Shown here: positions 6,125-52,269 of the stretch, piece after piece
How positions within the stretch are numbered: the first letter of the stretch is position 1
Layout: each line of letters opens with the position of its first letter
DNA from: Tetradesmus obliquus
Lineage: Eukaryota; Chlorophyta; Chlorophyceae; Sphaeropleales; Scenedesmaceae
Reading direction: 5' to 3'
DNA: 64,000 bases
Assembly (NCBI GenBank): GCA_030272155.1
Contig: CP126199.1
Coordinates: 4,514,501 to 4,578,500 of the forward strand
Translations under genes and position numbers: made by a program
Notes under the pieces: model-generated
Database searches by the model: none
What the model was told of the DNA's origin: nothing
Seen by the model: only the letters and a program-made list of their open reading frames with translations

Positions 6125-8676
<2,552 letters not shown>

Positions 8677-13751: not shown

Positions 13752-14012
13752 AGCAAGGGTGCAAAATGACAGTTGTAGGCATGGTAAAACCACAACTGAC
13801 ACGGTGCCTTGCATGTCCCAACCTCCACGGTTCAAGCAGCAACCACTTGCACGCAGCTGTCACTGGACGGCTGCCAGGGTGATGCTGTCACACAATGTGT
13901 GTGTTTGCACAACGGCAACACGGCCCCTGCTCAAGCCAGACTGACAGGGCTCATTCGCCCAACCACAGTCCGAAACCAACCCAACATCTACTGCACGAAA
14001 CCAACCCAACAT

Positions 14013-17000
14013 CTACTGCACGAGCGTCAGCTTGCTGCCGCAGCGCAGGCCGCCGCTGTCGTCCCGCAGCAGCACCGTGACTGCTGTGGAGGCAGCCGCA
14101 AAGCCCACAGACGCCACAAAGCACCAGCCCAGGCCATACACCACGCTGCTGCCGCCAAACGTGTACAGCGCCCCTGAAACAAGCGTGCCAGTCAGCCGGC
14201 CCATGGCATTTGCCATGTAGTAGAACCCGACGTTCATTGCCACCTTGTTGCCATCAGCATACCTGCAAGCGACAGCACCACAGGCGGAGGAGCGAGGTCA
14301 GATGCCGTTGCTTGCAGTTCCTTTCGTGGAGGTAATGTGGTGCAGGTCGCTGCCACAACAGATTGCTGCTGCTGCAGCGGGGGCGGCAAGCCCGCGGCGC
14401 GCACTCGACACACTGGGAGGCTTGCCCCGCAAAATTCGGAGTAAAGATTGCTGTTATGTTATGTTGGGCAGCCAAAGCGGCGGCTTCGGCAGCCGCAGCT
14501 CTAACAGCCAGAGTCACCTAGTGCAGCCTGCTTGCAGCTGCCAAAGACACGATGGCAAGCACCATCTGATGCACGTCAGGTGCAGCAAAGCAGGTTGCTG
14601 CATGGTGTTTGCTGTCTACATGGCAACATTCTCAAACTCACTTGACAATGAGGAAGCTGTGAACGCTGGAGTTCACCGCGAACAGCACGCAGTACAGCAG
14701 CAGGCCCGGCAGCAGCACGCCCGCCATGGCCTGCAGCTGCCGCTCCACAAAGATGGGCGTGCACAGAAACATCACGGCCAGGAAAGCAGGCGCAACGCAC
14801 AGCAGGCCATTCCACAGCAGCTCGACATACCTGCAGCAGTGCAACAATCACATGCGCATTTACGTTGCAGGAGGATGTTGGTGGAGAATGATGACAGACC
14901 TGGCATCGCACAATCATGGCCATGATTGGTGACGGGTGAAAATGGTGGCAGCGCTGTGGTGCCAAGTGCAGCGCCGCAACAACAGGTGGAACAGAGCGAG
15001 ACGTGTTGGATCTGAGCAGGCACCCACTTGCAGGGGGGTAGCGTGCATTTTGAGGCTACTGTCATGCTGCTGCATTATGGCATGCACAGTCAAGAGTGGC
15101 TGTGCGGGCTCAAACTGTACTCTTGACTGTGCGCAGTCAGATATGGCTGGCTGCCACAATTCAAAGCACCCTGCCGACTTACTTGTTGGCGGGGCTTTGT
15201 TTGAGCGGCTGCAGCACCAGCTGCGGCGTCCAGCTCTGCACCTGGCCGTACATGATGATGAAGCCCTGGAGGATTGCAGCAGCAGCAGCAAGTGGCAGCA
15301 GTGTGCACACAAAGCAGACAGTTCACGTCAGCGCATTACAACCTGGCCGTACAGGATGATGAAGCCCTGGCGGTTTGCAGCAGCAGCAAGCGACAGCAGC
15401 ATGCACACAACACGAGGCAGGCAGTTCACGACAGCACATCACAACAAGGGCCCACGGCGTTGTTGCTATGGCTCAATGGGTGAGTTAATGCTGATGAGCA
15501 CATCGCAACACACGACAACACACCTATCTGCCAGCCGGCCGCAAGTCCGTCAGCACCTTCAGCAGCCCTGATTACAAGGGTTGACCATCAAGCCCCATCT
15601 ACTGCATTCAGAGCTCGTTGCAGCCCGCCCCACCGCCCATCACTCTGTCCTGCACGTGGACGGCAACATCGATTAAGGGAACCTCAATCTGCCAGGCCCT
15701 CACCGCGAGCACGGCGCCCACCGCCACGCGCTCCCATCCAAAGCCGTGCACAGCGTCGCGCAGGAAGAAGGGCAGCGGCACCTCAAACCACATGTCCCTG
15801 CTGCCAAACAGGAAGAAGCGCGCCACGCTGAGCACGTTGACGTTGTAGGCTTGCTTGAAGAGCACGGAGAGCTTGATGTTCTCCTTGCGCGCCCTGGAAC
15901 GAGGCCGCAGCAGCAGCAGCAGCAGCAGCAGCACGGCAGCAGTTGCATGCACTGGACAAGATGCAGCAGCAGCAGTGGCATCCTCACACACAGCCACATA
16001 CAAACATGCAACCTACGACCATCGTGCCGGCCCATGGCACACCCTGTACATGCATGCAGTAATATGTACAGACTCATTTGCACAATTCAAAGTTATGTTT
16101 TTCAGTGTTTTTGTTTTTCAGGTTTTTTTCTAGTTTTGCATTTCAGTTTTTTTCCTGCCGCAGTGGCCTGCGCACCTGCCCAGCTGGTTGCTGAGGCCCA
16201 CCACGGCCCAAGGCATCGCCGCCAGCACCAGCAGCAGCAGGATGCCCAGCGCACAGTAGTATTACGACGTGCATGCATGCAGTGCTGAGTGCTGCCGCAG
16301 AAGCAATAACAGCAGAAAACAGTCAAACTGAAAGCACTCTGCCAAAATATTCCTGACCTAAAGCCAAAATATTCCTGACCTAAAGCAATGCTTTCGGATT
16401 CCAATGGATGGAATTCAAAATCACTTTCGCAGCGGCCTGCGCACCTGCCCAGCTGGTTGCTGAGGCCCACAACGGCCCAAGGCATCGCTGCCAGCACCAG
16501 CAGCAGCAGGATGCCCAGCGCAAAGTAGTAGTTGAATGTCAGCGCTGCAGCACCAATGAAGTAGCCAACGCCCTTCATGCTGTTCTTGAACCCGGTGATG
16601 AAAGACACCACCTTGAACAAGCGGCTCTGCGCATCCCGCGGCAGCACAGGGACACAAACACGCAGCAAGAGCAGGCGGGTGATGAAGCCTTGAACGCGCG
16701 GCTCTGCGCAGCAGCCCATGGCCGCACAGGAACAGACAGCCAGCGCAGGCCAGCATGCGGCACAGGGGTTATGCAGTATCACAGGACATGCATGCTCTCT
16801 GAACTCTAACCAAGCCCCGAGTTGCTGCTGCTGTCAATGACGTGCAGTCAAAGATACGCTTGCTGCCGCTGCTGCTGCTGCTGCTGCTGCTGCTGTCCAG
16901 GGCGAGCCCGGCTTGACACGCTTCTGAAGCATGGCATTTGGAGATGCGGCTGCGCGTCTGGCCAGGCACAGTAGCGACAGCTTGCATTCCGGCCAGCACA

Positions 17001-19776
17001 ACCCAGCCAAATAAAGATGGGCATTGAATCAAGTAGCAATGTGATGATGATGTCAGGCCAGCCAGCACGCACCTCCCGCTCATCAGGAGTGACAAGTTTT
17101 GTAACAGTCTTGCCACCAAGCTTCGTAAGGTCCTTTGCAACGCCGCACAGCATCTGTGCAGCCGTCACAAATACGATGCCTTTGGTGACCTCTCCGTTTG
17201 CAGCCCAGGCATCCTGCCAGCCAAACAGCATGCCTATGCCGCACAGCTGCAATGTCAGGCCTGCAGCAGCAGCAGCAGCAGCCAGCAAAGGACACGGCGA
17301 CAGCGGCAGCGGTGGTAGCTGAATTGAACATCAACAGGAAGGCGCCGTACAAGGCTTGTACGCTGTTTCTGATTACCTTCAGGCTTGCAAAGTGCATACA
17401 TAAGCTGTTATATTTCATTTGAACCGCACAAGGACGTGCGGCACAACATCACCAGCAGGACATCATCATGGTTATCACATCACCAATCAAGCCATGGCAA
17501 TGACCAGTGCTACCTGTGCACAGTGTGGACTTGATGCCCCAGCGCGCCCCCATGAGCCCAGCAACATTATTAGTAAGAGATTCCAACTTGAAAAATTATT
17601 ATATGATTAAATATATGATGAATATATGAGTATTATCAGTAGCACCTGTGAGCAGTGTGGACTTGATGCCCCAGCGCGCCCCCATGAGCCCAGCCAGCAG
17701 GTTTGTGACCACGCCCGCCACCTCATACAGCGTGAACATGACTGCGGTCTGCCACGCGGTGAAGCCCAGGTGGTAGGCGTGCAGCAGCACGATCATGCTG
17801 CAGCGCAGCAGAAAAGCAGGCAGGCAAGCATTATGTTACGTTATGTTACAAGTAGTGAGTATCGACGAAGAAGGAGTGAAGCCCAGGTGGTAGGCGTGCA
17901 GCAGCATGATCATGCTGCAGCACAGCAGAAAAGCAGGCAGGCAAGCATTATGTGAGGTAATGTTACAGGCAGTGAGCATGGACGCAGAAAGCAGTGAAGC
18001 CCAGGTGACAGGTGTGCAGCAGCACGATCATGCTGCAGCGGTGAGTCACCAACTGCAGCATGTGCATTGTGTCTTTGCTTCTGCTGCTGCTGCTGCCGCT
18101 GTTGCTGCTGCTGCTGCCGCTGTTGCTGCTGCTACGGCAGCAGCGGGCGCAGGCTGAATGCCACACGAGAGTCTGCATATGCAGCTGCAGCTGCATACCA
18201 ATGCCACAACTTCTACACGGGCTGCTGAGCACCGCTGTGCGCATGCGCCTGGGCTGCCATGCCATCCAACCGTGTGTCAACTGCTATGGCAGGCTGTACC
18301 ATGGTAGGCTGTACTATGGTAGGCTGTACTATGATAGGCTGTACTATGGTAGGCTGTACTATGATAGGCTGTACTATGGTAGGCTGTACTATGATAGGCT
18401 GTACTATGATAGGCTGTACTATGGTAGGCTGTACTATGGCAGGCTGTACTATGATAGGCTGTACTATGGTAGGCAGGATCGCTCACCGCACCGCGCCGTC
18501 AGTTGTGGTGAACAGCAGGTAGCTGAGGCTGATGATGACAAATGGCTTCAGCGCGGAGTACTCCCGCTTGAGGTACCTGCAGCAGCAGCAGCAGCAGCAG
18601 CGGCAGCAGCAGCAAGGGTGACGCTAAGAGTCCGAAGTGTGACAGCACTGCCAGGAGCAGCGGCTGCGGCAATACAAGTGATCAGCGCAGGTCATTCCAA
18701 AGCTACTTAGCCGTCAGCTGCAACAGCATCTGGCGCATGTTGTCACCTCAACATTGCGTGGGCAGCTAGCTGAAAATGTGCCCAACAGTGCAGCCTGTAG
18801 CAGCCAAGTGTCCTTCACACCTCACCCCCAGACCCTGCTACACAGGCAACACGGACAGCCAAAGACCTTGTCACAGTCAGCAGCTGCAGCTGCACGCTCA
18901 CTCTTTGCGGGACTCGTTCTCATGCCTGCCAAAGTCTGGGGTGTCAGGTGTCTTGCCATGCGTGCTGCCTGCAGCTGCGCTGGCCGCAGCAGCAGTCTCC
19001 TGCAAGCCGTCCTGCAAGCTGACCATGTCCCCTTTGGATTTGGCAGGGGCACAGCACTTGCCGGCGCTGCAGCAGCGTCACAACAACAGCAACGTAACAA
19101 GAGGGCATGTGGCAGATACAGGGGATGTACAACCAGGTGCAGCTGCTGGAGTATGGCTTGGCAAGCGTAGCGGAACAGGGCATGCTATAGGTGATAGGAG
19201 AGCTGCTGAAGCAAATGCTGCTGTATGCGCCGACAAAGCGGGCACGGTGGCCATTTTACATTGCTTGCTGGCCAGCGGAGTCACAACTGTTGGCTGCACT
19301 TACTCCTGCTGCGGCCCTGCAGCTGCTGTGCTGGCCTCGCAGTTGGGATATGCAAACAGCAAAGCGTCGTTGCCGTCGAGCACTGAGTAGCACAGGTCCT
19401 CAGCATCTGCCTGCAACCATCAGGTGCAGGAACAGGTGTGCTTCCTCCAGCTGAATCAGGGCAGCTTTTGAAAAAAACCAGCTACTAACATGCCAGGTGG
19501 GCAGCACACTTCGCAAACACTTTCAAAAATTGTTGATATGTATGTGTGTATGGATGTTCGTGGGGAAGGCGGTGCACGTCATCAGGCAGTGAAGGCAGGC
19601 TGACGGGGGCTCACCAGCTGGGGAGGTGCACAGCAAACAGTGTCGCCGCAAAGCATGGCCGGCACATCCACTGACCCAAAGCGGCACTTAAGGCCTGAAG
19701 CTGCGATATCAACGCTGCTTGGCACACTGCAGCACAGCTTGCTGCCTGCAGGGCAGCAAGCTTTTCCGTCTCCCAT
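14013..19776 (-). CDS. arsJ: ArsJ-type organoarsenical efflux permease with Cys-rich N-terminus, copy 1
   Basis: ArsJ is a 12-helix major facilitator permease that exports 1-arseno-3-phosphoglycerate. Eleven exons (19776-19615, 19410-19304, 19066-18902, 18576-18487, 17797-17646, 17260-17073, 16626-16445, 15893-15683, 15265-15183, 14830-14642, 14262-14013) join in phase to 592 residues. From about residue 146 it follows bacterial ArsJ: TDGAVRMIVLLHAYHLGF, MFTLYEVAGVVTNLLAG, GVAKDLTKLGGKTVTKLV, FITGFKNSMKGVGYF, NVNVLSVARFFLFGSRDMWF, SFLIVKYADGNKVAMNVGFY and YYMANAMGRLTGTLVSG. Exons 1-3 add a soluble domain absent from bacterial ArsJ as I recall it, with 12 Cys in the first 95 residues (CC at 7-8, 15-16, 48-49, 94-95). 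The open frame extends upstream of the chosen ATG, so the N-terminus could be longer. It is head-to-head with gapdh. The membrane it sits in is unknown. Confidence 0.9.
15338..15380 (-). repeat. Copy of the start of arsJ exon 9 with acceptor
   Basis: This repeats the acceptor and first bases of exon 9 (FIIMYG region at 15240-15270), about 97 bp upstream in the intron. One base change turns the Met codon into a Leu codon. The same copy exists in unit 2 near 31590. Confidence 0.75.
16163..16258 (-). repeat. Copy of the end of arsJ exon 7 with donor
   Basis: This repeats about 95 bp of the end of exon 7 (ALGILLLLVLAAMPWAVVG onward) and its donor, about 275 bp downstream in the intron. A short copy of the exon 7 start also lies upstream at about 16685-16716, so both edges of the exon are copied. 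Confidence 0.85.
17511..17577 (-). repeat. Copy of the end of arsJ exon 5 with donor
   Basis: This repeats the end of exon 5 (GLMGARWGIKSTL region) and its donor, about 130 bp downstream in the intron. The sequence between the copies is AT-rich. Confidence 0.82.
17870..18040 (-). repeat. Two copies of the start of arsJ exon 5 with acceptor
   Basis: Two further copies of the acceptor and the first 40 bp of exon 5 (MIVLLHAYHLGF) lie upstream of the real exon, about 117 and 238 bp away. All three have a plausible CAG acceptor. Both units carry them. Confidence 0.85.
18291..18471 (+). repeat. 15-bp minisatellite, 12 units, in arsJ intron (copy 1)
   Basis: Twelve units of aggctgtactatggt, with G/A variation at one position, form a perfect-period array in the intron before arsJ exon 5. 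Its open frames on both strands are consequences of the 15-bp period. I do not consider them genes. Confidence 0.95.
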
Positions 19777-20140
19777 GATGCCTCGAGCCTGTCGAGTGAC
19801 TGCAACTGGACAAGATCGTGACAAGGCTCTAATAAACAGTTCGAAGGATTGCTTGGTGTGTTCAAGGCAATCTGACAAGTGCCAGTCACGTTGATACTTT
19901 GATACTGTTATGAGCGTTCCGTACACACTTCGATGCTGTCTTTGGCTGCGTTTAACCACGTGCAGGTGCACTCCTCTTCATTGCAAACAAACCCAATCTT
20001 AGATACGAACGAGGCTGCAGCACGGACACAACAGCAACAGAAGCAGTAGCAGCAGCAGCAGGAGCAGCAGGAGCAGCAGCAGCAGTACCAGCAGCAGCAC
20101 CACCACCACCACCACCACCGCACCTGCAGCAGAGCCCACA
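19777..20140. promoter_or_regulatory. Shared divergent promoter region of arsJ and gapdh, copy 1
   Basis: Only about 365 bp separate the two start codons, so both promoters and 5' UTRs must lie here. The part next to gapdh is a run of CAG/CAC repeats ending in cctgcag, 16 bases before the ATG, which may be a 5' UTR intron acceptor. No known metal-responsive motif was recognised. Confidence 0.6.
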
Positions 20141-24871
<4,731 letters not shown>

Positions 24872-25854
24872 GCTGCATGAATGAACTATACAGAATTACA
24901 CATGTGTAACAAGGCACCTCTTTTCTGGCACCTCAGCCGTTGTGTGCCCAGCTCATCTTGATGGCAACATGATGAAACGGGCTGTGTTCCCGTCGTGTAA
25001 CACACAAATTGTGATGTCCACAGAGCAGTGCTCTGCTGTGCTTGCAATTGCAACTGCAAGCATGCTGCATGCCCAAACAAGACAATCAGTGACCTGCCAG
25101 TCTTGCCGCTTACTCTGCACAACCCTGCTGTAAGCTGCTCGACCCCACAGTCGATCCCAAATTGTGTTCAAACAGCAACATGGCAGATGCGCGTACGTTA
25201 GTTGTGGTCATCCTTGCAGTGCCACGCCGCTGCACGAGGACAATAGCCTGACGGAGGTGGAAGCCTAACACACTGCGCTAAAAAAACTGCACAGATTGAT
25301 GACTGACAAATTGTGGACAAATGGCCATGGCCACAAACTCTGACAATGCATTGGTAAAAGATTCTGGCAACAGACTCTGGCAATGGTCACAGAATCTGAC
25401 ATTGGCGGCAAAATCTTGCAACGGCCAAATTCTCCACACAATCTGGCGACGTTGCCATGGCTTAACATGATGGTGATGATTTTCTGCACATACATGAATC
25501 CACAGCCGCTCAACAGCACAAAAGCACATGCACTACTATGCAGACACCACACCTGCTCGGCACACCAATGTAAGTCCAAAACATGTATGCCCCCTCCCTC
25601 ACCCGGGGGGCCCCCGGTTGCTGCTGCTGCTGTGGCGTGACTGCTGAGCCCCAGCTGGCTGCTGCTGCTGCTGCTGCTGCTGCTGCCTTTGCCTTGTGCG
25701 AGCGTGCGTATGCCTGGCAGCTGCTGGCTGCTGTGGCTGCTGCTGCTGCTGTTGCGTGACTGCTGAGCCTCAGCTGGCTGCTGCTGCTGCTACCGCCTGT
25801 GCGAGTGTGGGTATGCCTGCAGCAGCTCTGCTGCTGTGGCGTGACTGCCGAGAC
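24872..25854. other. Intergenic region between convergent gapdh and pgk, copy 1
   Basis: This region holds the two 3' UTRs. Its right part (25615-25854) contains three or four degenerate copies of the pgk exon 7 end, each about 100 bp, made of CTG runs and the sequence cctgtgcgagtgtgggtatgc. The left part has no recognised feature. Confidence 0.6.
24905..24909 (+). terminator. Candidate TGTAA poly(A) signal of gapdh copy 1
   Basis: TGTAA occurs 34 bp after the gapdh stop, a typical distance for the chlorophyte polyadenylation box. Confidence 0.5.
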
Positions 25855-25861
25855 TCAGCTG

Positions 25862-25896
<35 letters not shown>

Positions 25897-28800
25897 TGCC
25901 TGTGCCAGCGCGCGTATGCCTGGCAGCAGCTGCCCTTGTATCAGCTGCAGGCTTGCACCCCCGCCTGTGCTGATGTATGAGATGGCTGGCGGCGGCTGCA
26001 TCTCATTGATTGCAGACACTGAGTCTCCACCTGCAAGGAAGCATCAGTATCTCAGCGATGCATGCATGCAGTGCAAGGTCAGCACACATCATCGCGATGA
26101 TGTGTCTCGGAATTGGTGGGGCGCAACAGCTGTATCGATGTTCTGCTTGCATGCATCCACATGCAGTTCCTTTGTCAACAGTATGATCATCAACCGCCAA
26201 TATAGCTATAGCACTGGCGCCAGCGATTACCATACATGCCAGGCAATGTAATCGGTATCACACTTTACTGGCCTGGCTGTGCGCACGTATCTTTAACTTG
26301 TTGCCGTGGGCAGTGCTGCTAGTACTGCTCTTGCAGCAGCCTCCAACTACTGCCTGCAACAGCTCAATCTCCCCTACTGCCTGCTGCTGCTCACCTCCCA
26401 CTATCGTTGTGCTGCCTGCTGCTGTCGCCTGCCCCATGGCCCGTGCCACTGCGTGCGTGCCAGCAGCAAACCCCGGCACCTCAAACCTGCCCATGGGTCC
26501 ATTCCAAAAGACTGTCTTGCAGCCCTGTATGGCCTCTGTGAACGCTGCTGCTGTCTCCGGCCCGATGTCCAGTCCATAGCAGCCTGTGCAGCGCGGATAT
26601 GCACGCATGGCGGTTGATGGTGAAACAGGCAGCAGCAGCAGCAGCAGCTACATCCTCAACTGTTGTGTAGTGGTCTGTCACACGGCGGCGTTTTTCTTTT
26701 ACTGATAATCAAGCGCTGCCAATGGTGCCAAAGGCGCCATTTGCCAGCTGAACGTGTAGACAAACACACACCAAGCACAGCGACCCACCGTTTGGCACGC
26801 AGGGGGCTTCCGGGGTGCAGCAGCTCACTGTGAGCGGCACGGTGCAGCAGCCGCTCTATGTGTGATATATATCATATACAACAACCATGTAACAACCCAC
26901 CGTTTGGCACGCAGGGGGCTTCTGGAGTGCAGCAGCTCACAGTGAGCGGCACTGTGCAGCAGCCGCAGTCGTCATCCAGGCTGCGTGCTACCACAATGTC
27001 ACGAGGCAGCAGCAGCTTCACGCCACGGGCTGCAGCAGACTCCCGCATCACCCGGCACGCCTGTAGGATGCCGAGGTGACCGGCAGCAGCGTGACCAGTA
27101 GCAGCAGCAGCAGAAGGGTGAAACAGCAAGCACAACATGTAAAGAGCAGGGTTGCTAGCAGATTAACAGCAGGGTTTGAGAGAGGGAGAGGAGAAGAGAG
27201 AGGGGACGAGAAGGTGCGTGGGCTAGCTACAACCACACCGACTGGGGCACTCTTTCTTCACTGTCTCACTCTTTCTAGGCAACATCGCGTCGCTCTCTCA
27301 CTTCTTTACTTTCTCACTCTGTCACTCCCCCAGCAACCCACCTCCAACCAATCCTCCTCGATCTGCGTCCTGCCGCACGCCACGCCCTCCGCTGCCAGGA
27401 AGGTGAAGGCCATGCGGCCGCCGATCAGCAGCACATCTGCGCTGCTCACAAGCGCCTGCAGCACGCCGATCTTGTCACGCACCTTGGCGCCGCCAATGAC
27501 CACACCAAACGGCCTGCGGGGGCAGCAGCAGCAGCAGCAGCAGCAGCGACAATCATTGTAAACACCTCAACTGTTATTACTAACATCATAGTATGTATTA
27601 GTAATCAATGTCAGTATCAGTATCCCTGCAAACATTTGCCCATGTACCCTCTGCAGCAGAAGTTGTTACTGCGAGCGGAACAGGGCAGGCCGCACAGCTC
27701 AGCTGGCTGCATTGCACTGTGTGTGCATTGTGCTGTGTGAGGCCAAGACAGCGGCGGAGTCTGTTGCGCTCGCGGGTGTTGTGCTGCTTTGCAAAACAGG
27801 CAAGGCTGGCACTACTTCTTGCTTGAACCAAATCACTGCAAAGCAACAAGGACACCATGAAAGAGAACTGCCTGCGCACCTTTCAGGGGTGTGGCAAGTG
27901 CTGTGCAGGTATCGCAGCTCAGACTGCATCAGCAAGCCAGGGTAGCAGGCGGCCATGTGCTGCAGCACTCCCTGCATGCCACAGTGCACACAATGCAGCA
28001 AGGTAAAAAGCATACAGGAGGGACACAAGGGTATAGCTTGCAGGAAGGACGCCACAGTGCAAGCGAGCAGACAGCTCAGCATCAAACTGTTCAGGTTTCC
28101 GAACAACAGCAGTGTGAAAAATGCTGGTTGGGGCGTTGCTGAAAACATGCATCAGCATGTGCTGCACCGCCATGGGTTGGTTGAGCTGATGTTAAACATG
28201 TGGCGACCAAGCACAGCACAACACAGCGCAGCATGCCTGAGCACAGCGCAGCTCAGCACAGTACATCACAGCAACAGTAATCGTCTCAGATGCCAAAGCA
28301 TTGCAGGAGAGAGATGGACGTTTAAGCACCTGATGGTGTGTGCAGCATGCATGCAGAACACTGTGCAGAACAGTATGCAGCGCGTAACCATGTCAATGCG
28401 GCATGTAACACAAGTAACACTGTCACGCCGCACTCACTGTGACGCTGGCCTGCTCCCTGTGCGCCACGCCGAAAGCGTCACTGACGTAAACATCGCCCAG
28501 CGCAGCCAGCTGCTGAGCGAATGACGGCTCGCTTGCTGCCTCTCCGCTGTGGAACCGCAAGTTTTCTAGCAGGCATGCCTGCGGCGGTTGGAGTGCGCAT
28601 CAAATATGGCGGTGGAGCCGCGAGAAGCAGCAGGTGTGTGTGTTGGGGCTGTGATTTCAGGCAAAAGGCTCTGCGATGTGTAGAGCAGGGGCATAGAATA
28701 TGAATAGGAAGCTTTGTTATACTGCAGCATAGCTGCTGGCTTACTGGTGATAGGGGTCTACCCATCAGCATCACAGCATACGCTGCATATGGTACAGGCT

Positions 28801-29233
28801 ATGCTTCAGGGTCAAGTACCACACAATGAGAAAGAACAGAAAGCTGCTTGTTCACCTGCCCTGGCTGCAGCTGTTGCACAGCAGCTTGTGCAGCGCTGCC
28901 AACGCAGTCTGCAGCAAGGCCAGTGAACACATCTGGCCCTAGCTGCTGCTCCAGCAGCTGCGCTACAGGTGCCAGACTGAATTTCTGTAGCTCCTCTATC
29001 GAAGAGGCATGATCAGGTCGACCCCAGTGGCTGCAAAGCACTACTCTGGCACCTTTCTGCAGCAGCAGCTGCAGTGTGGGAAGAATGCTACGCAGCCTCG
29101 TGTCATCAACAACTCGTCCTTGACATACGGGAACGTTTAGATCTACTCTGTATAGTACGCGTTTATTGTGCAATTGAACAGCAGCAAGGTCGACGCTGAG
29201 GAGTGTGGCAACGGCATCATCTAGCTGCGCCAT
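25855..29233 (-). CDS. pgk: Phosphoglycerate kinase with Cys-rich segment, copy 1
   Basis: PGK converts 1,3-bisphosphoglycerate and ADP to 3-phosphoglycerate and ATP, the step after GAPDH. Seven exons (29233-28856, 28578-28438, 27971-27880, 27513-27342, 27060-26901, 26583-26395, 26030-25855) join in phase to 435 residues, slightly longer than usual. Family motifs are [27 protein letters not shown] (usually SHLGRP), [78 protein letters not shown] and [11 protein letters not shown]. The substrate-binding Arg and His positions look intact. Before GLDIGPE there is an unusual segment with nine cysteines (CGCC, SCC, APC, NGC). No transit peptide is seen at this ATG. It lies tail-to-tail with gapdh. 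An ordinary housekeeping role cannot be excluded. Confidence 0.92.
26795..26870 (-). repeat. Copy of the end of pgk exon 5 with donor
   Basis: About 75 bp of the exon 5 end ([11 protein letters not shown] region) and its GTGGGT donor are repeated about 110 bp downstream in the intron. The copy includes part of the Cys-rich segment. Confidence 0.83.
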
Positions 29234-30253: not shown

Positions 30254-33200
30254 CTACTGCACGAGCGTCAGCTTGCTGCCGCAGCGCAGGCCGCCGCTGT
30301 CGTCCCGCAGCAGCACCGTGACTGCTGTGGAGGCAGCCGCAAAGCCCACAGACGCCACAAAGCACCAGCCCAGGCCATACACCACGCTGCTGCCGCCAAA
30401 CGTGTACAGCGCCCCTGAAACAAGCGTGCCAGTCAGCCGGCCCATGGCATTTGCCATGTAGTAGAACCCGACGTTCATTGCCACCTTGTTGCCATCAGCA
30501 TACCTGCAAGCGACAGCACCACAGGCGGAGGAGCGAGGTCAGATGTCGTTGCTTGCAGTTCCTTTCGTGGAGGTAATGTGGTGCGGGTCGCTGCCACAAC
30601 AGATTGCTGCTGCTGCAGCGGGGGCGGCAAGCCCGCGGCGCGCACTCGACACACTGGGAGGCTTGCCCCGCAAAATTCGGAGTAAAGATTGCTGTTATGT
30701 TATGTTGGGCAGCCAAAGCGGCGGCTTCGGCAGCCGCAGCTCTAACAGCCAGAGTCACCTAGTGCAGCCTGCTTGCAGCTGCCAAAGACACGATGGCAAG
30801 CACCATCTGATGCACGTCAGGTGCAGCAAAGCAGGTTGCTGCATGGTGTTTGCTGTCTACATGGCAACATCCTAAAACTCACTTGACAATGAGGAAGCTG
30901 TGAACACTGGAGTTCACCGCGAACAGCACGCAGTACAGCAGCAGGCCCGGCAGCAGCACGCCCGCCATGGCCTGCAGCTGCCGCTCCACAAAGATGGGCG
31001 TGCACAGAAACATCACGGCCAGGAAAGCAGGCGCAACGCACAGCAGGCCATTCCACAGCAGCTCGACATACCTGCAGCAGTGCAACAATCACATGCGCAT
31101 TTACGTTGCAGGAGGATGTTGGTGGAGAATGATGACAGACCTGGCAGCGCGCAATCATGGCCATGATTGGTGACGGGTGAAATTCATGCAGAAAATGGTG
31201 GCAGCGCTGTGGTGCCAAGTGCAGCGCCGCAACAACAGGTGGAACAGAGCGAGACGTGTTGGATCTGAGCAGGCACCCACTTGCAGGGGGGTAGCGTGCA
31301 TTTTGAGGCTACTGTCATGCTGCTGCATTATGGCATGCACAGTCAAGAGTGGCTGTGCGGGCTCATACTGTACTCTTGACTGTGCGCAGTCAGATATGGC
31401 TGGCTGCCACAATTCAAAGCACCCTGCCGACTTACTTGTTGGCGGGGCTTTGTTTGAGCGGCTGCAGCACCAGCTGCGGCGTCCAGCTCTGCACCTGGCC
31501 GTACATGATGATGAAGCCCTGGAGGATTGCAGCAGCAGCAGCAAGTGGCAGCAGTGTGCACACAAAGCAGACAGTTCACGTCAGCGCATTACAACCTGGC
31601 CGTACAGGATGATGAAGCCCTGGCGGTTTGCAGCAGCAGCAAGCGACAGCAGCATGCACACAACACGAGGCAGGCAGTTCACGACAGCACATCACAACAA
31701 GGGCCCACGGCGTTGTTGCTATGGCTCAATGGGTGAGTTAATGCTGATGAGCACATCGCAACACACGACAACACACCTATCTGCCAGCCGGCCGCAAGTC
31801 CGTCCGCACCTTCAGCAGCCCTGATTACAAGGGTTGACCATCAAGCCCCATCTACTGCATTCAGTGCTCGTTGCAGCCCGCCCCACCGCCCATCACTCTG
31901 TCCTGCACGTGGAGGGCAAAATCGATTATAGGGAACCTCAATCTGCCAGGCCCTCACCGCGAGCACGGCGCCCACCGCCACGCGCTCCCATCCAAAGCCG
32001 TGCACAGCGTCGCGCAGGAAGAAGGGCAGCGGCACCTCAAACCACATGTCCCTGCTGCCAAACAGGAAGAAGCGCGCCACGCTGAGCACGTTGACGTTGT
32101 AGGCTTGCTTGAAGAGCACGGAGAGCTTGATGTTCTCCTTGCGCGCCCTGGAACGAGGCCGCAGCAGCAGCAGCAGCAGCAGCAGCACGGCAGCAGTTGC
32201 ATGCACTGGACATGATGCAGCAGCAGCAGTGGCATCCTCACACACAGCCACATACAAACATGCCACCATCGTGCCGGCCCATGGCACACCCTGTACATGC
32301 ATGCAGTAATATGTACAGACTCATTTGCACAATTCAAAGTTATGTTTTTCAGTGTTTTTGTTTTTCAGGTTTTTTTCTAGTTTTGCATTTCAGTTTTTTC
32401 CTGCCGCAGTGGCCTGCGCACCTGCCCAGCTGGTTGCTGAGGCCCACCACGGCCCAAGGCATCGCCGCCAGCACCAGCAGCAGCAGGATGCCCAGCGCAA
32501 AGTAGTATTGCGACGTGCATGCATGCAGTGCTGAGTGCTGCCGCAGAAGCAATAACAGCAGAAGACAGTCAAACTGAAAGCACTCTGCCAAAATATTCCT
32601 GACGTAAAGCCAAAATATTCCTGACCTAAAGCAATGCTTTCGGACTCCAATGGATGGAATCAAAATCACTTTCGCAGCGGCCTGCGCACCTGCCCAGCTG
32701 GTTGCTGAGGCCCACAACGGCCCAAGGCATCGCTGCCAGCACCAGCAGCAGCAGGATGCCCAGCGCAAAGTAGTAGTTGAATGTCAGCGCTGCAGCACCA
32801 ATGAAGTAGCCAACGCCCTTCATGCTGTTCTTGAACCCGGTGATGAAAGACACCACCTTGAACAAGCGGCTCTGCGCATCCCGCGGCAGCACAGGGACAC
32901 AAACACGCAGCAAGAGCAGGCGGGTGATGAAGCCTTGAACGCGCGGCTCTGCGCAGCAGCCCATGGCCGCACAGGAACAGACAGCCAGCGCAGGCCAGCA
33001 TGCGGCACAGGGGTTATGCAGTATCACAGGACATGCATGCTCTCTGAACTCTAACCAAGCCCCGAGTTGCTGCTGCTGTCCAGGGCGAGCCCGGCTTGAC
33101 ACGCTTCTGAAGCAAGGCATTTGGAGATGCGGCTGCGCGTCTGGCCAGGCACAGTAGCGACAGCGTGCATTCCGGCCAGCACAACCCAGCCAAATAAAGA

Positions 33201-35959
33201 TGGGCATTGAATCAAGTAGCAATGTGATGATGATGTCAGGCCAGCCAGCACGCACCTCCCGCTCATCAGGAGTGACAAGTTTTGTAACAGTCTTGCCACC
33301 AAGCTTCGTAAGGTCCTTTGCAACGCCGCACAGCATCTGTGCAGCCGTCACAAATACGATGCCTTTGGTGACCTCTCCGTTTGCAGCCCAGGCATCCTGC
33401 CAGCCAAACAGCATGCCTATGCCGCACAGCTGCAATGTCAGGCCTGCAGCAGCAGCAGCAGCAGCCAGCAAAGGACACGGCGACAGCGGCAGCGGTGGTA
33501 GCTGAATTGAACATCAACAGGAAGGCGCCGTACAAGGCTTGTACGCTGTTTCTGATTACCTTCAGACTTGCAAAGTGCATACATAAGCTGTTACATTTCA
33601 TTTGAACCGCACAAGAACGTGCGGCACAACATCACCAGCAGGACATCATCATGGTTATCACATCACCAATTAAGCCATGGCAATGACCAGTGCTACCTGT
33701 GCACAGTGTGGACTTGATGCCCCAGCGCGCCCCCATGAGCCCAGCAACATTATTAGTAAGAGATTCCAACTTGAAAAATTATTATATGATTAAATATATG
33801 ATGAATATATGAGTATTATCAGTAGCACCTGTGAGCAGTGTGGACTTGATGCCCCAGCGCGCCCCCATGAGCCCAGCCAGCAGGTTTGTGACCACGCCCG
33901 CCACCTCATACAGCGTGAACATGACTGCGGTCTGCCACGCGGTGAAGCCCAGGTGGTAGGCGTGCAGCAGCACGATCATGCTGCAGCGCAGCAGAAAAGC
34001 AGGCAGGCAAGCATTATGTTACGTTATGTTACAAGTAGTGAGTATGGACGAAGAAAGGAGTGAAGCCCAGGTGGTAGGCGTGCAGCAGCATGATCATGCT
34101 GCAGCACAGCAGAAAAGCAGGCAGGCAAGCATTATGTGAGGTAATGTTACAGGCAGTGAGCATGGACGCAGAAAGCAGTGAAGCCCAGGTGACAGGTGTG
34201 CAGCAGCACGATCATGCTGCAGCGGTGAGTCACCAACTGCAGCATGTGCATTGTGTCTTTGCTTCTGCTGCTGCTGCCGCTGTTGCTGCTGCTGCTGCCG
34301 CTGTTGCTGCTGCTAAGGCAGCAGCGGGCGCAGGCTGAATGCCACACGAGAGTCTGCATATGCAGCTGCAGCTGCATACCAATGCCACCACTTCTACACG
34401 GGCTGCTGAGCACCGCTGTGCGCATGCGCCTGGGCTGCCATGCCATCCAACCGTGTGTCAACTGCTATGGCAGGCTGTACCATGGTAGGCTGTACTATGG
34501 TAGGCTGTACTATGATAGGCTGTACTATGATAGGCTGTACTATGATAGGCTGTACTATGGTAGGCTGTACTATGATAGGCTGTACTATGATAGGCTGTAC
34601 TATGGTAGGCTGTACTATGGCAGGCTGTACTATGATAGGCTGTACTATGGTAGGCAGGATCGCTCACCGCACCGCGCCGTCAGTTGTGGTGAACAGCAGG
34701 TAGCTGAGGCTGATGATGACAAATGGCTTCAGCGCGGAGTACTCCCGCTTGAGGTACCTGCAGCAGCAGCAGCAGCAGCAGCGGCAGCAGCAGCAAGGGT
34801 GACGCTAAGAGTCCGAAGTGTGACAGCACTGCCAGGAGCAGTGGCTGCGGCAATACAAGTGATCAGCGCAGGTCATTCCAAAGCTACTTAGCCGTCAGCT
34901 GCAACAGCATCTGGCGCATGTTGTCACCTCAACATTGCGTGGGCAGCTAGCTGAAAATGTGCCCAACACTGCAGCCTGTAGCAGCCAAGTGTCTTTCACA
35001 CCTCACCCCCAGACCCTGCTACACAGGCAACACGGACAGCCAAAGACCTTGTCACAGTCAGCAGCTGCAGCTGCACGCTCACTCTTTGCGGGACTCGTTC
35101 TCATGCCTGCCAAAGTCTGGGGTGTCAGGTGTCTTGCCATGCGTGCTGCCTGCAGCTGCGCTGGCCGCAGCAGCAGTGTCCTGCAAGCCGTCCTGCAAGC
35201 TGACCATGTCCCCTTTGGATTTGGCAGGGGCACAGCACTTGCCGGCGCTGCAGCAGCGTCACAACAACAGCAACGTAACAAGAGGGCATGTGGCAGATAC
35301 AGGGGATGTACAACCAGGTGCAGCTGCTGGAGTATGGCTTGGCAAGCGTAGAGGAACAGGGCATGCTATAGGTAATAGGAGAGCTGCTGAAGCAAATGCT
35401 GCTGTATGCGCCGACAAAGCGGGCACGGTGGCCATTTTACATTGCTTGCTGGCCAGCGGAGTCACAACTGTTGGCTGCACTTACTCCTGCTGCGGCCCTG
35501 CAGCTGCTGTGCTGGCCTCGCAGTTGGGATATGCAAACAGCAAAGCGTCGTTGCCGTCGAGCACTGAGTAGCACAGGTCCTCAGCATCTGCCTGCAACCA
35601 TCAGGTGCAGGAACAGGTGTGCTTGCTCCAGCTGAATCAGGGCAGCTTTTGAAAAAAAACCCAGCTAATAACATGCCAGGTGGGCAGCACACTTCGCAAA
35701 CGCTTTCAACAATTGTTGATATGTATGTGTGTATGGATGTTCGTGGGGAAGGCGGTGCACGTCATCAGGCAGTGAAGGCAGGCTGACGGGGGCTCACCAG
35801 CTGGGGAGGTGCACAGCAAACAGTGTCGCCGCAAAGCATGGCCGGCACATCCACTGACCCAAAGCGGCACTTAAGGCCTGAAGCTGCGATATCAACGCTG
35901 CTTGGCACACTGCAGCACAGCTTGCTGCCTGCAGGGCAGCAAGCCTTTCCGTCTCCCAT
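30254..35959 (-). CDS. arsJ: ArsJ-type organoarsenical efflux permease with Cys-rich N-terminus, copy 2
   Basis: This is the second complete arsJ gene, with the same 11-exon structure and 592 residues as copy 1. All exons checked are open. The only protein change I noticed is Glu to Asp in exon 3, outside the transporter core, and all 12 N-terminal cysteines are kept. The intron after exon 6 lacks about 62 bp present in copy 1. As a result the stretch from exon 6 through exon 7 (33471-32626) is open without a stop, so an intron-retaining mRNA would still be translatable. That longer product would insert some 150 residues in the middle of the permease and is unlikely to be functional. Confidence 0.9.
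34472..34652 (+). repeat. 15-bp minisatellite, 12 units, in arsJ intron (copy 2)
   Basis: This matches 18291-18471 in unit number, but the order of variant units differs at one internal position. It gives an independent marker that the two 16 kb copies are distinct sequences. Confidence 0.95.
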
Positions 35960-36326
35960 GATGCCTCGAGCCTGTCGAGTGACTGCAACTGGACAAGATC
36001 GTGACAAGGCTCTAATAAACAGTTCGAAGGATTGCTTGGTGTGTTCAAGGCAATCTGACAGGTGCCAGTCACGTTGATACTTTGATACTGTTATGAGCGT
36101 TCCGTTCACACTTCGATGCTGTCTTTGGCTGCGTTTAACCACGTGCAGGTGCACTCCTCTTCATTGCAAACAAACCCAGTCTTAGATACGAACGAGGCTG
36201 CAGCACGGACACAACAGCAACAGAAGCAGTAGCAGTAGCAGCAGCAGGAGCAGCAGGAGCAGCAGCAGCAGTACCAGCAGCAGCACCACCACCACCACCA
36301 CCACGGCACCTGCAGCAGAGCCCACA
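35960..36326. promoter_or_regulatory. Shared divergent promoter region of arsJ and gapdh, copy 2
   Basis: This is the same arrangement as 19777-20140, with a few substitutions and a small change in the CAG run. Nothing suggests that either copy has lost its promoter. Confidence 0.6.
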
Positions 36327-41068
<4,742 letters not shown>

Positions 41069-41853
41069 GCTGCATGAATGAACTACACAGAATTACACAT
41101 GTGTAACAAGGCACCTCTTTTCTGGCACCTCAGCCGTTGTGTGCCCAGCTCATCTTGATGGCAACATGATGAAACGGGCTGTGTTCCCGTCGTGTAACAC
41201 ACAAATTGTGATGTCCACAGAGCAGTGCTCTGCTGTGCTTGCAATTGCAACTGCAAGCATGCTGCATGCCCAAACAAGACAATCAGTGACCTGCCAGTCT
41301 TGCCGCTTACTCTGCACAACCCTGCTGTAAGCTGCTCGACCCCACAGTCGATCCCAAATTGTGTTCAAACAGCAACATGGCAGATGCGCGTACGTTAGTT
41401 GTGGTCATCCTTGCAGTGCCACGCCGCTGCACGAGGACAATAGCCTGACGGAGGTGGAAGCCTAACACACCGCGCTAAAAAAACTGCACAGATTGATGAC
41501 TGACAAATTGTGGACAAATGGCCATGGCCACAAACTCTGACAATGCATTGGTAAAAGATTCTGGCAACAGACTCTGGCAATGGTCACAGAATCTGACATT
41601 GGCGGCAAAATCTTGCAACGGCCAAATTCTCCACACAATCTGGCGACGTTGCCATGGCTTAACATGATGGTGATGATTTTCTGCACATACATGAATCCAC
41701 AGCCGCTCAACAGCACAAAAGCACATGCACTACTATGCAGACACCACACCTGCTCGGCACACCAATGTAAGTCCAAAACATGTATGCCCCCTCCCTCACC
41801 CGGGGGGCCCCCGGTTGCTGCTGCTGCTGTGGCGTGACTGCTGAGCCCCAGCT

Positions 41854-41890
<37 letters not shown>

Positions 41891-42060
41891 TTTGCCTTGT
41901 GCGAGCGTGCGCATGCCTGGCAGCTGCTGGCTGCTGTGGCTGCTGCTGCTGCTGTTGCGTGACTGCTGAGCCTCAGCTGGCTGCTGCTGCTGCTGCTACC
42001 GCCTGTGCGAGTGTGGGTATGCCTGCAGCAGCTCTGCTGCTGTGGCGTGACTGCCGAGAC
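41069..42060. other. Intergenic region between convergent gapdh and pgk, copy 2
   Basis: This matches 24872-25854. The CTG runs within the pgk-end copies are a few units longer here. No other feature is seen. Confidence 0.6.
41102..41106 (+). terminator. Candidate TGTAA poly(A) signal of gapdh copy 2
   Basis: TGTAA occurs 34 bp after the stop, at the same spacing as in copy 1. Confidence 0.5.
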
Positions 42061-45000
42061 TCAGCTGGCTGCTGTTGCTGCTGCTGCTGCTGCTGCCACT
42101 GCCTGTGCCAGCGCGCGTATGCCTGGCAGCAGCTGCCCTTGTAACAGCTGCAGGCTTGCACCCCCGCCTGTGCTGATGTATGAGATGGCTGGCGGCGGCT
42201 GCATCTCATTGATTGCAGACACTGAGTCTCCACCTGCAAGGAAGCATCAGTATCTCAGCGATGCATGCATGCAGTGCAAGGTCAGCACACATCATCGCGA
42301 TGATGTGTCTCGGAATTGGTGGGGCGCAACAGCTGTATCGATGTTCTGTTTGCATGCATCCACATGCAGTTCCTTTGTCAACAGTATGATCATCAACCAC
42401 CAATGGAGCTATAGCACTGGCGCCAGCGATTACCATACATGCCAGGCAATGTAATCGGTATCACACTTCACTGGCCTGGCTGTGCGTACGTATCTTTAAC
42501 TTGTTGCCGTGGGCAGTGCTGCTAGTACTGCTCTTGCAGCAGCCTCCAACTACTGCCTGCAACAGCTCAATCTCCCCTACTGCCTGCTGCTGCTCACCTC
42601 CCACTATCGTTGTGCTGCCTGCTGCTGTCGCCTGCCCCATGGCCCGTGCCACTGCGTGCGTGCCAGCAGCAAACCCCGGCACCTCAAACCTGCCCATGGG
42701 TCCATTCCAAAAGACTGTCTTGCAGCCCTGTATGGCCTCTGTGAACGCTGCTGCTGTCTCCGGCCCGATGTCCAGTCCATAGCAGCCTGTGCAGCGCGGA
42801 TATGCACGCATGGCGGTTGATGGTGAAACAGGCGGCAGCAGCAGCAGCAGCAGCAGCTACATCCTCAACTGTTGTGTAGTGGTCTGTCACACGGCGGCGT
42901 TTTTCTTTTATTGATAATCAAGCGCTGCCAATGGCGCCAAAGGCGCCATTTGCCAGCTGAACGTGTAGACAGACACACACCAAGCACAGCAACCCACCGT
43001 TTGGCACGCAGGGGGCTTCCGGGGTGCAGCAGCTCACTGTGAGCGGCACGGTGCAGCAGCCGCTCTATGTGTGATATATATCATATACAACAACCATGTA
43101 ACAACCCACCGTTTGGCACGCAGGGGGCTTCTGGAGTGCAGCAGCTCACAGTGAGCGGCACTGTGCAGCAGCCGCAGTCGTCATCCAGGCTGCGTGCTAC
43201 CACAATGTCACGAGGCAGCAGCAGCTTCACGCCACGGGCTGCAGCAGACTCCCGCATCACCCGGCACGCCTGTAGGATGCCGAGGTGACCGGCAGCAGCG
43301 TGACCAGTAGCAGCAGCAGCAGAAGGGTGAAACAGCAAGCACAACATGCAAAGAGCAGGGTTGCTAGCAGATTAACAGCAGGGTTTGAGAGAGGGAGAGG
43401 AGAAGAGAGAGGGGACGAGAAGGTGCGTGGGCTAGCTACAACCACACTGACTGGGGCACTCTTTCTTCACTGTCTCACTCTTTCTAGGCAACATCGCGTC
43501 GCTCTCTCACTTCTTTACTTTCTCAATCTGTCACTCCCCCAGCAACCCACCTCCAACCAATCCTCCTCGATCTGCGTCCTGCCGCACGCCACGCCCTCCG
43601 CTGCCAGGAAGGTGAAGGCCATGCGGCCGCCGATCAGCAGCACATCTGCGCTGCTCACAAGCGCCTGCAGCACGCCGATCTTGTCACGCACCTTGGCGCC
43701 GCCAATGACCACACCAAACGGCCTGCGGGGGCAGCAGCAGCAGCAGCAGCGACAATCATTGTAAACACCTCAACTGTTATTACTAACATCATAGTATGTC
43801 TTAGTAATCAGTTTCAGTATCAGTATCCCTGCAAACATTTGCCCATGTACCCTCTGCAGCAGAAGTTGTTACTGCGAGCGTAACAGGGCAGGCCGCACAG
43901 CTCAGCTGGCTGCATTGCACTGTGTGTGCATTGTGCTGTGTGAGGCCAAGACAGCGGCGGAGTCTGTTGCGCTCGCGGGTGTTGTGCTGCTTTGCAAAAC
44001 AGGCAAGGCTGGCACTACTTCTTGCTTGAACCAAATCACTGCAAAGCAACAAGGACACCATGAAAGAGAACTGCCTGCGCACCTTTCAGGGGTGTGGCAA
44101 GTGCTGTGCAGGTATCGCAGCTCAGACTGCATCAGCAAGCCAGGGTAGCAGGCGGCCATGTGCTGCAGCACTCCCTGCATGCCACAGTGCACACAATGCA
44201 GCAAGGTAAAAAGAATACAGGAGAGACACAAGGGTATAGCTTGCAGGAAGGACGCCACAGTGCAAGCGAGCAGACAGCTCAGCATCAAACTGTCCAGGTT
44301 TCCGAACAACAGCAGTGTGAAAAATGATGGTTGGGGCGTTGCTGAAAACATGCATCAGCATGTGCTGCACCGCCATGGGCTGGTTGAGCTGATGTTAAAC
44401 ATGTGGTGACCAAGCACAGCACAACTCAGCGCAGCATGCCTGAGCACAGCGCAGCTCAGCACAGTACATCACAGCAACAGTAATCGTCTCAGATGCCAAA
44501 GCATTGCAGGAGAGAGATGGACGTTTAAGCACCTGATGGTGTGTGCAGCATGCATGCAGAACACTGTGCAGAACAGTATGCAGCGCGTAACCATGTCAAT
44601 GCGGCATGTAACACAAGTAGCACTGTCACGCCGCACTCACTGTGACGCTGGCCTGCTCCCTGTGCGCCACGCCGAAAGCGTCACTGACGTAAACATCGCC
44701 CAGCGCAGCCAGCTGCTGAGCAAATGCCGGCTCGCTTGCTGCCTCTCCGCTGTGGAAGCGCAAGTTTTCTAGCAGGCATGCCTGCGGCGGTTGGAGTGCG
44801 CATCAAATATGGCGGTGGAGCCGCGAGAAGCAGCAGGTGTGTGTGTTGGGGCTGTGATTTCAGGCAAAAGGCTCTGCGATGTGTAGAGCAGGGGCATAGA
44901 ATATGAATAGGAAGCTTTGTTATACTGCAGCATAGCTGCTGGCTTACTGGTGATAGGGGTCTACCCATCAGCATCACAGCATACGCTGCATATGGTACAG

Positions 45001-45436
45001 GCTATGCTTCAGGGTCAAGTACCACACAATGAGAAAGAACAGAAAGCTGCTTGTTCACCTGCCCTGGCTGCAGCTGTTGCACAGCAGCTTGTGCAGCGCT
45101 GCCAACGCAGTCTGCAGCAAGGCCAGTGAACACATCTGGCCCTAGCTGCTGCTCCAGCAGCTGCGCTACAGGTGCCAGACTGAATTTCTGTAGCTCCTCT
45201 ATCGAAGAGGCATGATCAGGTCGACCCCAGTGGCTGCAAAGCACTACTCTGGCACCTTTCTGCAGCAGCAGCTGCAGTGTGGGAAGAATGCTACGCAGCC
45301 TCGTGTCATCAACAACTCGTCCTTGACATACGGGAACGTTTAGATCGACTCTGTATAGTACGCGTTTATTGTGCAATTCAACAGCAGCAAGGTCGACGCT
45401 GAGGAGTGTGGCAACGGCATCATCTAGCTGCGCCAT
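42061..45436 (-). CDS. pgk: Phosphoglycerate kinase with Cys-rich segment, copy 2
   Basis: This is the second complete pgk gene, seven exons and 435 residues. Changes against copy 1 are conservative: Gln to Glu near the N-terminus (AAVELHNKR), Ser to Ala after SEP in exon 2, and Ile to Leu after GGASLQ in exon 7. The Cys-rich segment and all substrate-binding motifs are kept. Like copy 1, it runs tail-to-tail with gapdh and carries end copies of exons 5 and 7 downstream of those exons. Confidence 0.92.
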
Positions 45437-46496
45437 GTCGTGACACTTTGAACATGATCGCAGACGCACATAGCAGTTTTACGAAAAATGCGTATTGAAA
45501 GCGTTACCAATCGAAAAAATCCAGCCATTGTTCACCTGGAGTGGATATCCTGTCATTTCGCACACCTGCAGTCACTGACAGTATCTTCACACAAAAGTAA
45601 TCTGTGATTTCTGTGACTGTCAAACGGTTCGCAATAATCAAAGGCAGAGCGGCGGTGTTCTGTTGATTGAATTGAGAAGTGTTGCTCGTCGTACCTGGAG
45701 GAGGAGCATACACAGACGCTGTCATGAGCACGCGCTGTTACGACTGCTGCCTCAGCAGGGCCTGCACTGAAATATCCAGATGGAAATTGTTCCCATGGGG
45801 AGTAGGGGGAGAAGAAGGTTGTTACAATGCCACGGTACGCTGGCCAAGCGCTGTCACAATGCTGATAGGGAAGCCCCCTTTGAGTGACTGATTGACCAGC
45901 ACACCACCCTGCCACCGTGGTGGTGATCACGCCTCAAGTAAAATAATAGGTTTAAGTATTATTATACTTTCCTGACCAGGTATCACAGAGCTGTGCTGCA
46001 GCCAGCCAGTAGGGGCAACACCCCTACAGTTGAACTTGAGGTTTTCTGCGGCACATGTTCTACTGCGTGTGCAGCGTGTACAAGCGTACTACGCTGCTTT
46101 TAGTAAAAGCTGGACTGCTGCCACGCTGCCCTCCTGCTCATCATTAACATCATTGACACCATCCGGCTGCCAATCAGCCATAGTAATGACGCCATTGTGG
46201 CTGCCTTATTCATACACCCAAGCAGCAGTGGATGGCGTGTAGTCAGCCAGCTCCTCCGCCTGCATGCAGCAGCATGTAAAAGGATCAATTTCACATGGGC
46301 AAAGCACACAGGTATTGCAGGATTTGGTAAAGTTATCAAAAGATGGCACGTAGCTGGCCCCGTTCTTGACACTATCGGCCCCATTGTTATGCGTTGGGTA
46401 TTGGCTGCCCAGCCAAGAGCTGGTGTGTGCGCCGCTACAGCAGGCAGCACGCCCTGACAATCTGGAGAGCCTGGAGAGCTTCAGGCTGAGAAAGTA
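45437..46496. other. 5' flank of pgk copy 2 and right flank of the duplication
   Basis: Up to 46176 this matches 29234-29973. Beyond it is single-copy sequence leading to the NDK 3' end. A minus-strand ATG at 46184 opens a 31-codon frame (MADWQPDGVNDVND) that crosses the duplication edge. It could be a lost first exon or chance. No other gene is recognised. Confidence 0.45.

Positions 46497-51350: not shown

Positions 51351-51384
<34 letters not shown>

Positions 51385-52230: not shown

Positions 52231-52269
<39 letters not shown>

Follow-up and report, generated by a model that had tools for sequence, protein, structure and literature searches.

Very probably, the window analysed here (64,000 nucleotides of the green alga Tetradesmus obliquus, GenBank assembly GCA_030272155.1, contig CP126199.1, positions 4,514,501 to 4,578,500 of the forward strand) carries two intact tandem copies of the green-algal ArsJ-GAPDH3-PGK3 arsenate-detoxification cluster. 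The cluster includes genes for an ArsJ-type permease of the major facilitator superfamily (MFS), a glyceraldehyde-3-phosphate dehydrogenase (GAPDH) of the ArsJ-associated type, and a phosphoglycerate kinase (PGK). All lie within a few genes of each other, the arrangement by which the green-algal neighbourhood is recognized. Positions 13752-46176 correspond exactly to a 16.2-kb unit present twice, head to tail, as delimited by blastn, alignment and junctions; copies A and B are 97.9-98.4% identical over two blastn pieces. An earlier note, made from the letters of this DNA, had described an arsJ-gapdh-pgk cluster: the genes are real and lie where it placed them, but it made no mention of the cluster being present twice.

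Structure of the array

Features are listed below by position in the window, strand and content.

13752..29973, no strand: tandem unit copy A (arsJ, GAPDH, PGK); blastn against copy B, alignment, junctions
29974..46176, no strand: tandem unit copy B, beginning one base past the end of copy A; blastn, alignment, junctions
14013..19776, minus: ArsJ-type MFS permease copy A, 11 exons, 585 aa; splice model, NF033734 exon matches
19776-19615, 19410-19304, 19066-18902, 18576-18487, 17797-17646, 17260-17073, 16626-16445, 15893-15704, 15265-15183, 14830-14642, 14262-14013, minus: exons of ArsJ copy A
30254..35959, minus: ArsJ-type MFS permease copy B, 11 exons, 585 aa; splice model, NF033734, MFS_1
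35959-35798, 35591-35485, 35247-35083, 34757-34668, 33980-33829, 33443-33256, 32871-32690, 32147-31958, 31518-31436, 31071-30883, 30503-30254, minus: exons of ArsJ copy B
18902-19776, minus: N-terminal extension of ArsJ copy A, exons 1-3
35083..35959, minus: N-terminal extension of ArsJ copy B, exons 1-3, ~145 aa, 12 cysteines, four CC pairs
19777..20140, no strand: divergent arsJ/GAPDH intergenic region copy A, 364 bp between start codons
35960..36326, no strand: divergent arsJ/GAPDH intergenic region copy B, 367 bp between start codons
20141..24871, plus: ArsJ-associated-type GAPDH (GAPDH3) copy A, 9 exons, 346 aa; splice model, NF033735 exon matches
36327..41068, plus: ArsJ-associated-type GAPDH (GAPDH3) copy B, 9 exons, 346 aa; splice model, NF033735, tree
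36327-36486, 36799-36905, 37297-37464, 37838-37915, 38194-38312, 39367-39511, 39989-40033, 40625-40738, 40964-41068, plus: exons of GAPDH3 copy B
25855..29233, minus: PGK-like gene (PGK3) copy A, 7 exons, 435 aa; splice model, PF00162 exon matches
42061..45436, minus: PGK-like gene (PGK3) copy B, 7 exons, 434 aa; splice model, PF00162
45436-45059, 44781-44641, 44174-44083, 43722-43551, 43269-43110, 42786-42598, 42233-42061, minus: exons of PGK3 copy B

Splice models were built manually from open frames and family matches. The frames of all 6 genes (3 per unit) are open and free of internal stops, and introns have GT-AG ends, partly by construction, since GT-AG was used as a rule in choosing exon boundaries. 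Each unit holds 10, 8 and 6 introns in the ArsJ, GAPDH and PGK genes, respectively, and this rules out a bacterial contaminant. The models agree with the 11 exons of ArsJ and the 9 exons and 346 aa of GAPDH described earlier; the 592 aa given for ArsJ exceed the present model by 7 aa. The lengths of the divergent arsJ/GAPDH region bear out the promoter region of ~365 bp proposed for this pair. A scan designed for bacterial promoters found no match in it. In both copies PGK is convergent to GAPDH, as stated before, at a spacing of 983 bp (copy A) or 992 bp (copy B). A genome-wide search with NF033734, in which 11/11 candidates were scored, found no third arsJ.

Relationship of GAPDH3 and ArsJ to bacterial proteins

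The sequence type of the dehydrogenase supports the assignment of the cluster. GAPDH3 scores 498.6 bits with NF033735, above the cut-off of 450; with the type I GAPDH model it scores 379.5 bits, also above that model's cut-off (367.2). Bacterial loci used for comparison were 87, namely 7 of the 66 matching plasmid records and the best 80 of at least 585 confirmed loci in prokaryote genomes; 67 of them have flanks of 4 kb or more on each side, others as little as 0.2 kb on one side. ArsJ-type GAPDH genes were found in the flanks of 84 loci, the misses being L059, L063 and L075. The motif TNTQ occurs in 80/84 arsJ-linked bacterial GAPDHs and the motif TGSATAI in 60/84; neither was seen in 13 other bacterial GAPDHs, and both are present in GAPDH3. 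In 14 bacterial genomes (40 rows, 4 of which, being fragments, were put aside), identity to GAPDH3 is 56-63% for arsJ-type proteins (15 rows) and 36-47% for other full-length GAPDHs (21 rows). The motif with the catalytic cysteine is intact, and so are most of the conserved columns.

A quick tree of 46 rows was built from 28 of those 40 rows, 15 of the 84 flank GAPDHs and the three genes of the alga. GAPDH3 falls within a clade of 31 rows together with 30 bacterial arsJ-linked rows (Shimodaira-Hasegawa-like approximate likelihood ratio test, SH-aLRT, 100), 29 of which are arsJ-adjacent, and L159 owes its label to likeness alone; two of the 30 duplicate other rows. The other GAPDHs of the alga, on C6 and C1, group with the 13 other bacterial GAPDHs; their sequences are joined exon matches rather than exact splices. 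The earlier view that this GAPDH is of the arsJ-linked and not of the glycolytic type is thus upheld by motif counts, NF033735 score and tree, and a position with GapA/GapC was looked for and not seen. Sequence matches to solved structures bear the names of GAPDHs and PGKs. One bacterial genome (G015, Marinobacter lutaoensis, locus L094; loci L154 and L159) has two ars-type GAPDHs, of which only one lies beside arsJ.

The ArsJ protein of copy B matches NF033734 from 3 to 390 of the 392 profile positions, and this is the sole NCBIfam family matched; MFS_1 is found at 40 bits. The gene adjoins that of the ArsJ-associated GAPDH in the splice models, the context to which NF033734 is linked, and 90 of the 115 columns conserved across the 87 bacterial ArsJs are retained. 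The ArsJ tree included 63 of the 87 bacterial rows, 24 being dropped by name as kin of kept rows. A Calothrix plasmid copy tops the ArsJ matches among the 30 of 66 plasmid records listed; it is not named as donor, as the ArsJ tree gives no supported placement. Intron 4 of ArsJ hosts a 15-bp minisatellite (CTATGGTAGGCTGTA, ~12.7 copies) at 18284-18474 in copy A and, by eye, at ~34470-34655 in copy B.

A cysteine-rich extension of ArsJ

The first three exons of the algal ArsJ encode a cysteine-rich N-terminus. Twelve cysteines, including the four CC pairs, are in the first 146 aa, versus 7 in the other 439 aa. Residues ahead of the TDGA motif number 169, and at most 63 in all 83 of the 87 bacterial ArsJs in which the motif was recognisable and length could be measured from start codons picked by script. 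Among 329 overlapping open intronic windows, the fractions reaching or exceeding exons 1-3 in codon usage are 0.6%, 0 and 0; codon usage is above that of nearly all intronic windows, and exons 1-3 are therefore probably coding sequence. Pfam has no family matching the extension (E up to 1), a search of the genome finds nothing like it elsewhere, and the main text of PMC7826186 does not mention it. Binding of trivalent arsenic (arsenite) by its cysteines would be a guess. Extensions of another kind are found in two Chromatiaceae ArsJs (L091, L127), where ~200 aa at the C-terminus resemble, by eye, a lipoyl-type or membrane-fusion domain.

PGK3 and its predicted compartment

PGK3 scores 435 bits with PF00162 (gathering cut-off 27), and retains 89 of the 101 columns conserved in 15 other PGKs. 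Across the genome PF00162 matches only the copies in the array and one gene on C13. By eye, the product of the latter starts with a leader resembling a chloroplast transit peptide. The Pfam domain of PGK3 begins at residue 18 after an acidic start, leaving little space for a leader, and no plastid-type leader was seen by eye; that of GAPDH3 begins at residue 4, leaving no room for a transit-type leader. GAPDH3 and PGK3 are accordingly predicted to be cytosolic, and the alga seems to be without any other cytosolic PGK.

The PGK tree comprised 13 of 14 bacterial loci, three PDB chains and two algal genes. The C13 PGK groups with cyanobacterial PGKs and with PDB chain 7zy7 (100/98), and PGK3 falls, in the best tree, outside the cyanobacterial/plastid clade (99/100). 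Chain 7zy7 is presumably from Chlamydomonas, and chain 1v6s we take to be from Thermus. Kinship of PGK3 to Actinobacteria, Chlamydia and Deinococci has been published; in the present tree such kinship is sampled by one actinobacterial genome and chain 1v6s, and no chlamydia.

PGK genes were found beside arsJ in 0/87 bacterial loci (tblastn of the flanks, E up to 1e-6). As GAPDH accompanies arsJ in 84/87 loci but PGK in none, PGK was probably added later to the arsJ-GAPDH pair. In C. reinhardtii the upper part of glycolysis takes place in the plastid (restated in PMC5556983). With arsenate trapped in the cytosol, 3-phosphoglycerate would then be left stranded if no PGK were provided in that compartment. 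That the sole other PGK found has a plastid-type leader may be the reason why algae recruited one; bacteria would need no extra PGK, and this fits its absence from the 87 loci.

Divergence between the two copies

In the DNA alignment of copies A and B, mismatches are found at 11/4104 coding, 95/9662 intronic and 29/2348 intergenic positions (124/12010 in all non-coding DNA), a 3.9-fold contrast between coding sequence and the rest (Fisher p 4e-7). In the codon alignment coding mismatches are 16/4095, and the contrast to non-coding DNA is 2.6-fold (p 5e-5); the difference between the two counts stems from an alignment gap in PGK's alanine-rich tail. Seven changes are synonymous (~1020 sites) and 9 non-synonymous (~3075 sites); of the latter, 7 are in PGK, 4 of them in its tail. 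ArsJ copies differ at 3/1755 sites and GAPDH copies at 2/1038 (p 7e-5 and 0.004 versus non-coding DNA). With less divergence than non-coding DNA, both copies of ArsJ and of GAPDH appear to be maintained; PGK gives no such signal. Two copies would provide extra dosage.

Proposed pathway and alternatives

In the pathway suggested by these genes, GAPDH3 would join arsenate to glyceraldehyde-3-phosphate, yielding 1-arseno-3-phosphoglycerate, and ArsJ would export the arsenic, either in this form or as arsenate once the compound falls apart. PGK3 would convert the leftover 3-phosphoglycerate to 1,3-bisphosphoglycerate, from which GAPDH3 would regenerate glyceraldehyde-3-phosphate; GAPDH3 and PGK3 would both act in the cytosol. 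Recycling of 3-phosphoglycerate is a hypothesis of PMC7826186. A working arsenate efflux pathway in T. obliquus is likely because insertions in arsJ (Cre07.g354150) or pgk3 (Cre07.g354250) are reported to make C. reinhardtii arsenate-sensitive, with poor growth on arsenate (PMC7826186). T. obliquus would then be one more alga on the short list of those with a glycolysis-linked arsenate exit route. The entire route can be copied in one piece, a finding of relevance to how well the lowest levels of freshwater food webs tolerate arsenic. The presence of a PGK in the cluster is puzzling, and a reason that can be tested is that the only other PGK detected in the genome bears a plastid-type leader.

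Several observations weigh against parts of this interpretation. Of the two NCBIfam families suggested by the earlier note, NF033735 is passed by GAPDH3, but ArsJ, at 373.3 bits, stays below the curated equivalog cut-off of NF033734 (400), and is therefore called here an ArsJ-type homologue and not a certified NF033734 equivalog. In the ArsJ tree the algal protein sits on a very long branch without a starred placement, and no donor is therefore named. PGK3 joining the cyanobacterial/plastid PGK clade is not rejected by the approximately unbiased (AU) test (p 0.28). PGK copies differ at 11/1302 sites, not significantly less than non-coding DNA (p 0.66), and overall pN/pS, 0.43, is not significantly under 1 (p 0.09). 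Some upper glycolytic steps are allowed in the cytosol of Monoraphidium, another green alga (PMC5556983). Lastly, Vibrio cholerae ArsJ is reported to export free arsenate, and even for bacteria there is disagreement on whether ArsJ carries free arsenate or 1-arseno-3-phosphoglycerate (PMC9601151).

This last point leads to a variant of the same pathway, which is possible though unlikely, in which 1-arseno-3-phosphoglycerate made by GAPDH3 would be only a short-lived store of arsenate, the export through ArsJ would be of free arsenate, and PGK3 would stand in for the phosphatase VarH, breaking the compound down by transfer of arsenate to ADP, followed by hydrolysis. PGK naturally acts on the phospho-analogue of 1-arseno-3-phosphoglycerate, which counts for this variant. 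In V. cholerae extracellular 1-arseno-3-phosphoglycerate was not detected, inactivation of VarH raised its cellular level, and an arsJ mutant fared worse than a varG mutant (PMC9601151). Transfer to ADP would, however, free arsenate inside the cell, and requires that ArsJ accept free arsenate.

A more elaborate version of the ArsJ-GAPDH3-PGK3 detoxification pathway is speculative and rather doubtful as a whole. The module would have been amplified as a block, with selection acting on both copies of ArsJ and GAPDH at least; the extension would be a cytosolic sensor or gate binding trivalent arsenic; and PGK3 would be the sole cytosolic PGK, explaining why algae with upper glycolysis in the plastid recruited a PGK.

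That the alga has a single cluster, doubled only in the assembly by the joining of two alleles or strains end to end, is quite improbable. The copies are adjacent and ~98% identical, and the contrast between exons and non-coding DNA would fit alleles too. Against this, the window contains zero N, the junction at 29973/29974 is flush, the outer flanks are unlike each other, and both units reside on one contig of 5.9 Mb, in a genome of 104.7 Mb assembled in 17 contigs.

A glycolytic cluster of a cytosolic GAPDH/PGK pair and a sugar-phosphate or phosphoglycerate transporter, with no role in arsenic, can be practically discarded. Two of the genes encode glycolytic enzymes by family, keeping the motif of the catalytic cysteine and most of the conserved columns, but the bacterial arsJ pair holds the closest relatives of both GAPDH and permease, and mutation of the corresponding Chlamydomonas genes causes arsenate sensitivity (PMC7826186), a phenotype reported in C. 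reinhardtii to be specific to arsenate, with growth otherwise normal.

Other arsenic genes, neighbouring genes and repeats

An ACR3-like arsenite transporter gene is located at G000:C1:1459984-1463103, with five exon matches to TIGR00832, none above the cut-off alone. ArsH had no match in the genome of the alga. An exon of a nucleoside diphosphate kinase (NDK; PF00334, 42.6 bits) lies just to the right of the array, at ~47270-47385 (minus strand). An exon of another MFS transporter (51209-52093, minus strand; MFS_1, 70 bits) is found ~5 kb from the array, and is weakly similar to D-galactonate and Na/phosphate transporters, all far below cut-offs.

Fifteen partial same-strand exon copies, mostly of exon edges and near their own exon, are present in 13752-29973; they derive from 8 of 27 exons and are 83-97% identical to them. 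Fourteen are intronic and one lies just beyond the PGK gene; examples are 16176-16261, 17876-17914, 22954-23025, 24122-24167 and 26789-26854. Comparable double matches were observed in the C1 GAPDH and C13 PGK genes. Local tandem duplication across splice sites seems common in this genome, and a link of exon-edge duplications to intron growth or intron gain is possible. Outside the cluster, local repeats include ~98-bp units at 7134-7919 and a 332-bp match at 213-bp spacing at 52249-52793.

Comparison with known systems

The algal genes resemble the bacterial arsJ-gapdh pair, as known in Pseudomonas aeruginosa: ArsJ is ~37-45% identical to its bacterial counterparts and GAPDH mostly 52-62% (range 47-65%). 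In contrast to the algal genes, the bacterial pair has no introns and no PGK in the 87 loci, bacterial ArsJs have no long N-terminal extension (83/87 measured), and in the six annotated plasmid loci arsJ and GAPDH follow one another on a single strand instead of being divergent. The var operon of V. cholerae (arsR-varG-varH-arsJ) similarly confers arsenate resistance by an alternative GAPDH and ArsJ, but its third partner is VarH, not a PGK (PMC9601151). Among eukaryotes, arsJ of Cyanidiales is said to be monophyletic with that of the green lineage, but to stand alone, in PMC9812998, where the green-algal cluster is also cited. Among the matches listed from the open-licence literature there is no algal ArsJ work beyond PMC7826186 and PMC9812998, and no report of a doubled ArsJ-GAPDH3-PGK3 cluster.

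The closest system is the ArsJ-GAPDH3-PGK3 neighbourhood described in green algae by Foflonker and Blaby-Haas in 2020 (PMC7826186), who proposed that ArsJ and GAPDH are of bacterial origin and that PGK3 was recruited afterwards. The same three genes are adjacent there, ArsJ and GAPDH being of bacterial type, GAPDH distinct from GapA/B and GapC, and PGK apparently distinct from the plastid PGK. Gene identities and the bacterial kinship of GAPDH given in the earlier note hold; the cluster itself is not new, having been in print for green algae in 2020 (PMC7826186). The T. obliquus locus differs in that the whole cluster is tandemly doubled, while the doubling that PMC7826186 describes is of an ArsBHC-type cluster, at separate loci in C. 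zofingiensis. The three-gene set was thus already known in green algae; the intact tandem doubling, the cysteine-rich extension of ArsJ and the argument on compartments are modest additions to it.

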